Assembly (NCBI GenBank): GCA_958295945.1
Contig: OY282386.1
Span: 3,838,204-3,902,203 of the forward strand
Direction: 5' to 3'
Length of the DNA: 64,000 nucleotides
Source of the DNA: Candidatus Poribacteria bacterium
GTDB lineage: Bacteria; Poribacteria; WGA-4E; WGA-3G
The notes below the pieces were generated by a model, which was not told the DNA's origin, did not search any database, and saw only the letters and a list, made by a program, of their open reading frames with translations. Both the position numbers and the translations under genes were made by a program. Positions 8,370 to 47,148 of this stretch are shown piece by piece (the stretch's first letter is position 1; each line of letters opens with the position of its first letter).

Positions 8370-9053
8370 ATGAAATTTGTATTGGTATTAGCAGGATTTG
8401 TGTTGATGATAGTCTATTGTGTTATCAGCACGATCAACATGGCACAAGCGGAGGAAGTCTTGGGTGTAGGAACGGCTTCACTGATAGGAGGAGACCTAAC
8501 CGACCCAGAAGACGATGGTGCACCGGATGCAAATGAAGGTTACAACGCCATTTTCTCAGCCAACGAAGAACCCGGATTCGGGGGCGGGGAATTTGCGTTT
8601 AATGTTTTTGATAACATCCTTGGCGGCGGCAATGCCAAATGGTGCTGAGGACGTGGGGGTGGCATTCCGGAGGAAGGCCTACACGTGACAGCTGAGTTTG
8701 ACGAGCCGTACGCATTGACACACTTCACCGTATCTTCAGCGAACGATGTTCCTGAGAGGGACCCTTCAGTGTGGGAGGTTCAGGGGTCGAACGACGGCAA
8801 TGAATTTACGACCATCTTTGCTCACGACGGGGGTAGCCTTTGGCCTCAGCGGCTGCAAGTCGTCCTTTTTGAGGCAGGCGAAGATTACGACGTTCAAAAA
8901 ATCGGGTATCGGTTTTTTCGGCATGTTACTTTTGAAACCGTTGGGGCGAACTTTCAAATTGGCGAAATTGAGTTCTTCGGCGATGATAGTTATCCCGTAG
9001 ACCCTAAAGCCAAGATCACAACCACATGGGGAAGCATCAAAAACGTCCGATAA
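8370..9053 (+). pseudogene. Secreted F5/8-type (galactose-binding-like) protein with in-frame TGA
   Basis: A Shine-Dalgarno (AGGAG, 8356-8360) precedes ATG 8370. The frame encodes a signal peptide (residues 1-28, ending in AQA-E) and an N-terminal domain with ANEGYNAIFSANEEPGFGGG. It meets TGA at 8646-8648 just after NAKWC, then stays open in the same frame to 9053. The downstream part, LTHFTVSSANDVPERDPSVW and VQGSNDGNEFTTIF, continues the same discoidin-like domain. The C-terminus is KITTTWGSIKNVR, a tail seen on two other secreted proteins here. The TGA is most simply a nonsense mutation; recoding is possible but unproven. The gene is GC-richer than its surroundings, suggesting a different origin. 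Confidence 0.75.
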
Positions 9054-25945: not shown

Positions 25946-26620
25946 ATGAGACACTTATCACTTCTTCTGCTTTGTTCTTGCTCAATTATGATATTCTCAA
26001 ATAATGCTATTGATGCTGCAATTGATCCTGATTCCATTGTTGGCATCTGGCTTCTTGACGAAGGGCAAGGTAATGAATTCAAAGATACATCTGTTAACGG
26101 TAATGATGGAGAAATCCACGGTGCCAAATGGACAGATGGAAAAATCGGAAAAGGTTTAGAATTTAATGGTGCTAATCGGGCTGAGATTCCCGGTAGCAAG
26201 TCAATTGATGACTATCTTAACGGTTTCACTTATCTTCTATGGGTAAAACCAACTGGAAATCCACCAAATGTAAATACACGTGTTATTGAACATGATTGGC
26301 ATAATCCTACAATACAGATCGGACCAAATGATTATTACGGTAGTATTGCCGCCAACGCGGACCAAGCACAAACGAATGTGCGAGGCGGTGCATGGGAGAT
26401 GGATGAGTGGAGTTTTGTTGCAATAACCTATGATGGTGATATCCTCAAATTGTTTGTTGATGGAGAATTTGTTGGTGAAAAGGCAGTTGGGAAACCTGAT
26501 GAGAAATTGGGTGCTGAAATACGTCTTGCTTCATGGAGAAATCCTGGATGGAACTTTACCGGTGTCCTTGATGAGGTCGCTGTTTTCAACGAACCACTTT
26601 CAAATGATGATCTAAATTAA
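25946..26620 (+). CDS. Secreted LamG-like (concanavalin A-fold) protein, stop before its tail
   Basis: The 224-residue product has a signal peptide (MRHLSLLLLCSCSIMIFSNNAIDA) and one ConA-like lectin domain of the LamG/laminin-G_3 type: GIWLLDEGQGNEFKDTSVNG, then FTYLLWVKPTG, WSFVAITYDGDILKLFVDGE and LDEVAVFNEPLSNDDL. In the standard layout the last helix continues. Here it ends at TAA (26618-26620), after which the same frame stays open for 29 codons and ends in a conserved tail (see 26621-26710). It is likely exported and binds a glycan or matrix component. Confidence 0.8.
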   Translation: MRHLSLLLLCSCSIMIFSNNAIDAAIDPDSIVGIWLLDEGQGNEFKDTSVNGNDGEIHGAKWTDGKIGKGLEFNGANRAEIPGSKSIDDYLNGFTYLLWVKPTGNPPNVNTRVIEHDWHNPTIQIGPNDYYGSIAANADQAQTNVRGGAWEMDEWSFVAITYDGDILKLFVDGEFVGEKAVGKPDEKLGAEIRLASWRNPGWNFTGVLDEVAVFNEPLSNDDLN

Positions 26621-26710
26621 ATCATGAACAACGGACTGGAAGAAGCACTGTCTGTAGCTCCTACAGAGAAAATGACAACTACATGGGCACGAATTAAAGG
26701 ACTCAGATAG
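26621..26710 (+). other. In-frame continuation of the LamG protein: detached C-terminal tail
   Basis: Immediately after TAA 26618 the frame reads I-MNNGLEEALSVAPTEK and MTTTWARIKGLR before TAG. The DDLN-x-IMNNGLEEAL join is what one expects of an intact LamG protein, so the TAA looks like a point change. The tail TTTWARIK matches those at the ends of the genes at 8370 and 44882. Confidence 0.65.
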
Positions 26711-44881: not shown

Positions 44882-45622
44882 CTAATATGAGGATTTTATT
44901 TGTCCCCATGCCGTGCTTAACTTATCCTGTGGTTCAACAAGCAAAACCAGATCGTCAACGCCATCCCCGATAAAGAGGTTATCAATATAAACAAGACCGT
45001 AATTGCCGAACTTTCCTGTTTTATAGTCCCCATCTTTAGCCTCTGTAGCAACAGCGATGTCTTCAAAAGGTGTTTTATCATCTCGTTCTTTGAGCTTAAA
45101 AGTGAATGAATCGCCATCTAATGTGAGTTGTGCGCGATACCAAACCTGCGGCTTGTTTTCCACCATCCCATCCGCTATAAGCGTCCAACCACCATGCTGT
45201 TTCCAAAATTGATACGGTTTATTACCTTGCCGGCGGTCACTCAGATAGAACTTCCCACCATCTTGATAGCGAAAGACAACTCCCATGTAAAAGTCATCGG
45301 GAAACATCATATCCCATTCAGCAACATAATCGTCCCAATCATCTTCTCCACAAACATAGATAGATCCGCCAGGACCATCATGCCGTGATGCATCGGATGC
45401 TTTGTCAGATGTTTTCAACACTTTGTTTCCAGCATCTTTGGGATCGGCAACAACTATTGCCTTCGTATTACCAGCAAACCCAATATCCCAGTTATTCGGT
45501 TCCTGGTCTATTGAATCTTTCTCAAAATCGTCATGAAACAACAAATCTGCTGATGCCTTCATTGAAACTAACGTAGTTAATATAAACATAGCACCAAATA
45601 AAAACAATAGCGGATAACGCAT
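44882..45622 (-). CDS. Secreted ConA-like-fold protein with conserved C-terminal tail
   Basis: The 246-residue protein has a signal peptide (MRYPLLFLFGAMFILTTLVS, cleaved near ASA-D) and a jelly-roll domain starting LLFHDDFEKDSIDQEPNNWD. Family-like features are YVAEWDMMFPDDFYMGVVFRY and WYRAQLTLDGDSFTFKLKER. These match the DUF1080/3-keto-disaccharide-hydrolase-like ConA group, but no catalytic residues are identifiable. The last residues, KLSTAWGQIKSSY, repeat the tail of the secreted proteins at 8370 and 25946. It is likely exported; glycan binding is inferred. Confidence 0.75.
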   Translation of the reverse strand: MRYPLLFLFGAMFILTTLVSMKASADLLFHDDFEKDSIDQEPNNWDIGFAGNTKAIVVADPKDAGNKVLKTSDKASDASRHDGPGGSIYVCGEDDWDDYVAEWDMMFPDDFYMGVVFRYQDGGKFYLSDRRQGNKPYQFWKQHGGWTLIADGMVENKPQVWYRAQLTLDGDSFTFKLKERDDKTPFEDIAVATEAKDGDYKTGKFGNYGLVYIDNLFIGDGVDDLVLLVEPQDKLSTAWGQIKSSY

Positions 45623-45693: not shown

Positions 45694-47148
45694 CAATACC
45701 TTCGCCAAAAAAATTGTTGAATAAATTGGGCAAATGTCCTAAAGTTATGCAAATATATTAATAAAATAACTTTGAAAGGACAATTGCCCATGCAAGTAAT
45801 TATAGCACTTTTTGCAGTTTTTGCACCACATATATCTGCAACGACAGGACGCCAATTATCATGTGTTGTCCTCGCAGTGCTTGCGATGACAGGACGGGTC
45901 ACCATGTTAAATATCTCTCGTTGGACATCAAAAGGCGGTAGCTACCGCACACTTCAACGCTTTTTCAACACGGTGCTGCCTTGGCCGACCCTCTTCTGGG
46001 TGTTTTTTCGCACACACCTGCTTGATCGTGAAAGCGAATATATCATCGTAGGAGACGAAACAATCAAGCCCAAAACGGGTTCAAAGACTTTTGGTTTAGA
46101 CCGTTTCTTTTCTTCAACACATGGCAAAGCGATCCCAAGTTTGTCATTCTTAGCCGTGTCCTTAGTGAGTGTCAATGAACGGCGTTCTTATCCAATGGCT
46201 ATAGAACAAATCGTCCGAGATGACACATCATCGACTTCAGCTGCCAAACAAGATGCTACCCCAAAGGACCCCTTGAAACGCCCGCGTGGACGCCCAAAAG
46301 GGAGCAAAAACCGAGATAAAACCGATGTCGTGATTATCGGTGTTTTGAAACAACTTCAAATTATGATCAAAACGCTACTGTCAAAAGTCGGAGGTGCGAT
46401 CCAACTCCGGTATTTAGTGCTTGATGGATATTTTGGACATAATAACGGAGGACAAATGACAAGACAATGTGATCTCCATCTCATCTCAAAACTTCGCTCG
46501 GATGCCGCACTGTTTTGGCAACCGACAGACGAAAAAGAAGGCCCCGGACGCCCACGGCTCTACGGGGAAAGGTTCAACCCACAACAGATTGATCCGAAAT
46601 ATCGCATCTCTATCCAAACCGATGGAAATATCAGAACCGACATCTATCAAGGACACCTGCGAAACCAAAAGTTCCCAGAACTTCTAAACGTCGTTTGCCT
46701 CCTCAAGACAAACTTGAAAACAAAAAAGCAATCACACATCCTATTGTTTAGTTCTGATTTAGCATTAGACGCAGAAAAGATGATTGACTATTATTCCCTT
46801 CGTTTCCAAATCGAGTTCAACTTCCGGGATGCGAAACAATATTGGGGATTGCAAGATGCTATGAATGTCAACAAAGAACCCGTGAACACTGCAGCAAATC
46901 TATCAATGTTTATGATCCATGTCAGTGCGAAACTCATGGAAAAGGACAGATGTCAGAATCCCGAATATAGTGTATTAGATCTCAAATCGCGCTACCGAGG
47001 GCTGAAATATGTGCATGAAACATTAAAAATGCTTCCGCAAAAACCTGAACCAATTGTTATTCAGCAAATCACTGAACATCTGGGTTCAATCGGTGCTATT
47101 CATCACACACAACCCAATCTTAACCCAGGATAATTGGCGAAGGTATTG
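45694..47148 (+). mobile_element. IS4-type insertion sequence, complete
   Basis: The 15-bp ends CAATACCTTCGCCAA (45694-45708) are exactly inverted at 47134-47148. One transposase gene fills the 1455-bp element. Flanking target duplication is not clear (AAT / TAA only). It appears intact. Confidence 0.88.
45790..47133 (+). CDS. IS4-type DDE transposase
   Basis: ATG 45790 is favoured, with AAAGGA 9 bases upstream; a TTG at 45772 is in frame. The 447-residue transposase has the first catalytic Asp in YIIVGDETIKPKTG, the second in LRYLVLDGYFGHN, and the Glu in the IS4-type Y-x2-R-x-Q-I-E segment YYSLRFQIEFNFRDAKQYWG, with Lys downstream. An RPRGRPKGSKNRDK basic linker sits between. All catalytic residues are present. 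Confidence 0.9.
   Translation: MQVIIALFAVFAPHISATTGRQLSCVVLAVLAMTGRVTMLNISRWTSKGGSYRTLQRFFNTVLPWPTLFWVFFRTHLLDRESEYIIVGDETIKPKTGSKTFGLDRFFSSTHGKAIPSLSFLAVSLVSVNERRSYPMAIEQIVRDDTSSTSAAKQDATPKDPLKRPRGRPKGSKNRDKTDVVIIGVLKQLQIMIKTLLSKVGGAIQLRYLVLDGYFGHNNGGQMTRQCDLHLISKLRSDAALFWQPTDEKEGPGRPRLYGERFNPQQIDPKYRISIQTDGNIRTDIYQGHLRNQKFPELLNVVCLLKTNLKTKKQSHILLFSSDLALDAEKMIDYYSLRFQIEFNFRDAKQYWGLQDAMNVNKEPVNTAANLSMFMIHVSAKLMEKDRCQNPEYSVLDLKSRYRGLKYVHETLKMLPQKPEPIVIQQITEHLGSIGAIHHTQPNLNPG

Follow-up and report, generated by a model that had tools for sequence, protein, structure and literature searches.

In the PEP-CTERM, GlyGly-CTERM and LPXTG tails, which go with exosortase, rhombosortase and sortase, respectively, the conserved motif is followed by a hydrophobic membrane segment and a basic end. 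In dockerins and cellulosome docking modules, a modular C-terminal element links proteins that act on or bind carbohydrates to a shared partner. The type A C-terminal sorting domain of the type IX secretion system (T9SS; TIGR04183/PF18962) is a folded Ig-like beta-sandwich of about 70-80 aa (40-55 aa in its short form) with motifs A to E. In Bacteroidota, the flexible linker between the cargo and the T9SS domain is cut by the sortase PorU (PMC11969387), and a single-cell study of 2014 described T9SS sorting domains, but reported no structural genes of the system, in Poribacteria (PMC3909097).

Sponges harbor Poribacteria as abundant symbionts that are uncultured, and the C-terminal tail reviewed below bears on how these bacteria display proteins. 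It was recognized in a 64,000-nucleotide stretch (the window), which spans bases 3838204-3902203 of a 5.34-Mb genome in one contig.

The tail and its place in the window and the genome

The initial annotation proposed three secreted proteins with a common C-terminal tail. When one mismatch is allowed, the tail pattern occurs exactly three times in the window (0.07 expected by shuffling), and these are the three tails, each at a stop (Table 1); however, only one of the three genes is intact, namely the third, which lies on the minus strand, a correction to the earlier reading. Likewise, the feature originally drawn at 26621-26710 does contain a tail, but its start is nothing other than the point just past the in-frame TAA of the LamG gene.

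Table 1. Tail-bearing genes of the window, their tails, and further features discussed in the text
Feature	Position	Strand	Remarks
Discoidin-like (F5/8-like) secreted-protein gene, tail-bearing	8370..9053	+	Interrupted by in-frame TGA 8646-8648; intact homologues on contig L151
Tail VDPKAKITTTWGSIKNVR	8997..9050	+	Stop directly after; translation, one-mismatch pattern
LamG (ConA-like) secreted-protein gene, tail-bearing	25946..26710	+	Interrupted by in-frame TAA 26618-26620
Tail VAPTEKMTTTWARIKGLR	26654..26707	+	Stop directly after; translation, one-mismatch pattern
ConA-like/DUF1080-like secreted protein, tail-bearing	44882..45622	-	Intact, 246 aa; Sec signal peptide MRYPLLFLFGAMFILTTLVSMKASA
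Tail VEPQDKLSTAWGQIKSSY	44885..44938	-	Stop directly after; translation, one-mismatch pattern
453-aa ORF	45772..47133		Adjoins the intact tail gene; similar copies in L061, L081 and L056
SprA-like T9SS translocon gene	G000:C1 ~1010676-1017098 (locus L082:4677-11099)		

Regarding the interrupted genes, the in-frame TGA stands at a position occupied by Cys (in WCC) in two intact homologues from one Poribacteria contig, 76-77% identical, and judging from the sequence it could be either a nonsense mutation or a selenocysteine codon. Readthrough of the in-frame stops was considered and set aside; the TAA takes the place of a sense codon, the TGA stands at the Cys of the homologues, and a scan of 0.8 Mb showed no tRNA-Sec, although this is not conclusive. 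The 453-aa ORF next to the intact tail gene recurs in similar form in three more of the sampled genome stretches and is probably a transposase.

The tail core (AARNNNDCNACNRCNTGGRSNNNNNTNAAR, i.e., K-x-[TSA]-T-[TA]-W-small residue-x-hydrophobic-K), searched as a strict DNA pattern, gives 52 matches in the genome of the window and none with a reversed-pattern control, and a shorter pattern gives 55 against one. In translation, each of the 55 tails found ends 1-10 residues before a stop. Run over 0.86 Mb of this genome, a tail HMM trained on other genomes only yields 33 matches scoring 8 bits or more (one in reversed proteins), 32 of them 0-9 residues from the C-terminus. The tail is thus not a rare motif, with about 60 copies in this genome and presence in 85/85 genomes of the phylum.

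The consensus of 271 tails is V-[ED]-[PA]-x-[GD]-K-L-[TA]-T-T-W-[GA]-x-[IL]-K, followed by one to six residues and the stop. While about 13 residues preceded by a separate linker had been annotated at first, the conserved unit comprises about 15 residues and includes that "linker." The V is kept in 93% of the tails, P/A in 89%, K in 92% and the last K in 96%, although W and some other columns are partly preset by the search pattern, so that the measured conservation partly reflects it; the V, P/A and G/D columns are not preset and therefore constitute the unbiased part of the signal. In degenerate tails, the Thr residues are variable but L, W, [GA/S], [ILV], and K are retained, as in HLSLTWSRLK and VEPKEKLALRWADVK. 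The spacing of L, W, and I/L (i, i+4, i+7) would fit an amphipathic helix.

Over the 52 intact tail proteins of this genome, the tail has a net charge of +2.4 and is not hydrophobic. The absence of a hydrophobic anchor, as originally noted, is borne out by a top 19-residue hydropathy of 1.33 in the last 30 residues and a mean of -0.61 over the last 20. No Pfam or NCBIfam model covers the tail in these 52 proteins, and no mention of the motif was found in the open-access literature, where its letters retrieved only nucleotide strings and unrelated text.

Cargo proteins and distribution of the tail

A signal-peptide-like N-terminus, called with a simple hydropathy rule rather than a trained predictor, is found in 21 of 23 tail ORFs but in 201 of 631 other ORFs (p = 9e-9), as well as in 3/3 tail ORFs of a random 400 kb sample; non-secreted proteins accordingly do not carry the tail as often. 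Of the two tail ORFs without such an N-terminus, one is an interrupted gene and the other a start-site artefact. Among 63 tails examined in the genome of the window, 52 are on intact signal-peptide proteins and 11 (17%) on frames that are broken or lack a signal, which suggests rapid gene turnover, and hence a cargo that turns over fast, or assembly errors. The 52 intact proteins have no mature membrane segment, and a lipobox cysteine at the cleavage site was matched, doubtfully, in one of them only, so that they do not qualify as lipoproteins.

After removal of the signal and the tail, these 52 proteins fall into 14 clusters without detectable BLAST similarity and belong to many Pfam families, which upholds the original view that no single shared domain accounts for the tail. 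These are clusters of sequences and not of folds, because distant ConA-like folds may underlie several of them. Laminin_G_3 is found in 27 of the proteins, while the remainder include DUF1080-like, F5/8 type C, CBM9, TolB/DPP-like propellers, PA14, HmuY, LRR with a metallopeptidase, DUF4960, and others; the 14 clusters are mostly of carbohydrate-binding or surface-type folds. Within a set of 52 LamG homologues, the mean pairwise identity is 0.60 in the tail, 0.24 in the LamG domain and 0.11 in the linker, and the V of the tail is conserved even though the search pattern did not demand it.

In an AlphaFold2 model of a LamG member, pLDDT is mostly above 90 in the ConA-like domain, below 50 in the linker and about 61 in the tail, which forms a short helix. 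What is predicted past the LamG domain is limited to one helix, then a disordered linker and a helix of 6 residues, the low-confidence tail helix being located at W-x-x-L-K; the model thus places the tail on a floppy linker outside the LamG fold. A second model, made from the window's own protein with four sequences, has a pLDDT of 33. With Foldseek, the LamG model matches ConA-like binding domains at large, in line with its LamG identity.

The tail pattern can be found in all 85 Candidatus Poribacteria genomes searched, with 3-105 matches each and at most one per genome for the control. The supposed restriction to this lineage holds in the main, since, of the 80 loci listed in a scan across 84,980 species, 78 are titled Poribacteria, but not strictly, because a sponge-associated metagenome bin recorded as Pseudomonadota (G085) and contigs of T4-like phages carry the tail as well. 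In G085, three tails are found on signal-peptide proteins unrelated to LamG. The GC content of the tail-bearing contigs equals that of the rest of this genome, and lon, located beside two of the tails, is closest to order mates (41-42% identity vs 37-40% in Poribacteria); these contigs are therefore probably not mis-binned poribacterial ones. Single pattern matches in G095 and G113, the other two in the 43-genome order of G085, were discarded, as they are not at the ends of real ORFs. Two tails of G086, recorded as Planctomycetota, are on contigs of deviating composition, which may be mis-binned.

With regard to mobile elements, the consensus tail peptide has no match among plasmids. At least three IMG/VR contigs (L245, L254, and L256) encode a LamG protein with its own signal sequence that ends in VEPKLKLTTTWGEVKK, IKSKLKLTTTWGEVKK or IEPKNKLVTTWGEMKKWK. 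Such contigs carry T4-like replication genes, namely a phage DNA polymerase, UvsX, a gp41-type helicase, and a gp44-type clamp loader. By eye, one neighboring product on the phage contigs resembles the MotA/ExbB type and another MscS.

No dedicated enzyme linked to the tail genes was found in their neighborhoods. DUF6785 membrane proteins, the one neighboring family considered, adjoin tail genes in three distant loci but were rejected as a partner, since over 592 kb of tail-bearing DNA their proximity to tails does not exceed what their number predicts. Polytopic membrane proteins of the DUF6785/DUF6784 type are strongly expanded in all 85 Poribacteria (7 to at least 15 scored copies per genome and up to 86 candidates) and were absent from 14 control genomes.

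Type IX secretion and the possible function of the tail

The genome of the window encodes a SprA-like protein of 2140 aa, matching TIGR04189 with E = 1.8e-43, which is under the curated cut-off. Such matches are found in 44/44 Poribacteria tested, mostly with a length of about 2150-2300 aa where the contig allows, and this phylum-wide presence bears on the puzzle of T9SS sorting domains described without structural genes (PMC3909097). No SprA-like protein was detected in seven genomes outside Poribacteria, including the tail-bearing G085 and G086, nor in the 14 control genomes; G085 and G086 are both MAGs that may be incomplete, and mis-binning is possible for G086. On either side of the SprA locus, a tail gene is located within about 16 kb, from which no linkage is claimed.

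T9SS-type C-terminal domains (PNPFNPETW) number 36 in the genome of the window and 6-92 in the others sampled, with none in G085, G086, and G093. Poribacterial proteins bearing them match TIGR04183 (E 1e-8), whereas none of the 52 tail proteins does. The two elements nevertheless meet: one tail HMM match in the genome of the window is internal (SVEPHGKKSITWGRLKT-VEVLQNYPNPFNPETW) and immediately N-terminal to a T9SS-type domain, and a tail-like segment, with a degenerate Thr run, precedes 8 of 79 such domains (about 10%), always exactly 8 residues before PNP (0.085 expected from shuffling). Since PorU cuts the linker, a protein cleaved at this junction would end, in its mature form, with the tail or close to it. 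On a simple reading, the tail and the T9SS domain could be alternative routes to the same place, the tail decaying once a T9SS domain has been gained.

It can be hypothesized that the tail is a modular C-terminal tag for docking to the envelope or surface, a reading to which we give a probability of about 0.5. The three checks set in the initial annotation, on rarity, on cytosolic proteins and on one shared domain, all turned out in favor of a tag, and the phage-encoded LamG proteins that retain the tail speak for it as well; against it count the lack of DUF6785 enrichment near tail genes, the low confidence of the tail helix, the conservation preset by the search pattern and the 11 of 63 tails on broken or signal-less frames. 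Tail proteins would cross the inner membrane by the Sec route and then expose their last 15 or so residues on a flexible linker; this short stretch of positive charge would probably form an amphipathic helix, one face of which carries L, W, and I/L. A putative conserved envelope partner would recognize this peptide and hold the lectin-like cargo in or on the outer envelope, although the tails could act in the periplasm rather than at the surface. In Poribacteria, the tag would work beside T9SS as a functional alternative to the T9SS domain, either as the protein end or, in a minority of T9SS cargo, in degenerate form at the exact junction with that domain.

The main rival to a docking tag, which we regard as unlikely, is that the tail is a minimal T9SS signal, read by the translocon or a shuttle like the type A C-terminal domain, with export via SprA. 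The SprA-like proteins of all Poribacteria tested, the T9SS-type domains of the same genomes and the fact that a degenerate tail can directly precede one of them all suit it, as do the short T9SS domains (40-55 aa) of Prevotella intermedia and the 22 residues of HBP35 that are enough for export (PMC11969387, PMC10202324). However, the tail aligns with the junction before the domain and not with the PorV-contacting motifs B, D, and E, no T9SS model recognizes it, and G085 and G086, MAGs that may be incomplete, have tails but neither detectable SprA nor T9SS domains. Moreover, tail and domain counts do not covary (24 tails and 7 domains in G001, 3 and 21 in G009). Somewhat less probable again is cutting of the tail by a dedicated sortase-like transpeptidase that joins the cargo to an envelope polymer, with Lys, Thr, and Trp as recognition residues. 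Strong conservation over 15 residues with variable ends is what sorting signals look like, and the tail proteins have no other anchor; yet such a substrate would have no membrane anchor to hold it, cleavage would remove little since only 1-6 residues follow the motif, and no enzyme was found linked to the tail genes.

A signal for periplasmic handling, i.e., for docking of a chaperone or quality-control factor or for protection against C-terminal proteases, rather than for localization, appears improbable. An exposed tail on soluble Sec-exported proteins would be in line with it, and its occurrence in phages and in G085, a genome with three tails, suits a function needing no large machinery, but confinement to a subset of exports rich in glycan-binding proteins and to nearly one phylum ill fits a general folding need. 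It is even harder to credit that the tail simply came along with a single family of paralogues and does nothing by itself, a very improbable reading. While about half of the tail proteins (27/52) are LamG paralogues, 14 clusters remain after tail removal, the tail is more conserved than the LamG domain attached to it, and unrelated G085 proteins end in the same tail; furthermore, the AlphaFold2 model of the LamG member speaks against one shared C-terminal domain that includes the tail.

The docking tag can be extended, tentatively and with less confidence than the tag itself, to a new class of envelope sorting in which a 15-residue tag free of a membrane segment and its receptor would coat the cell with lectin-like proteins, in parallel to a previously unreported poribacterial T9SS, and T4-like phages would have adopted the tag so as to put a protein of theirs into the envelope of the host. 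A tag on about 50-100 lectin-like proteins in many genomes would provide a list of candidate envelope or surface proteins and a handle on the machinery, and the phage copies suggest that the tag can be taken over by others, in which case a foreign host could be used to test it.

Comparison with known systems

The tail and the T9SS type A domain (poribacterial form YPNPFNPETWIPY...) are alike in being C-terminal on Sec-exported proteins with diverse N-terminal domains, in occurring many times per genome and in the same organisms, and in that a degenerate tail can directly precede the domain. Unlike the T9SS type A domain, the tail consists of 15 residues outside the modelled fold, without motifs A to E, and is present in a genome without detectable SprA; accordingly, the AlphaFold2 model of the LamG member shows no C-terminal beta-sandwich. 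As with the PEP-CTERM, GlyGly-CTERM, and LPXTG tails, a short conserved C-terminal motif is found on many unrelated secreted proteins of one lineage, but neither a hydrophobic segment nor a basic end follows it.

The tail can also be likened to a modular C-terminal docking element of the dockerin type, although dockerins are folded Ca-binding domains of about 60 aa, whereas the tail proteins have no such sequence and no scaffold protein was found. Targeting peptides of microcompartments and encapsulins resemble it as short terminal peptides, exposed on a flexible linker and probably helical, but they act on cytosolic proteins while the tail proteins carry Sec signal peptides. As a kind, the C-terminal sorting or attachment tag is thus known, while a phylum-wide tail of this kind with neither membrane segment, folded domain nor known machinery appears to be new.
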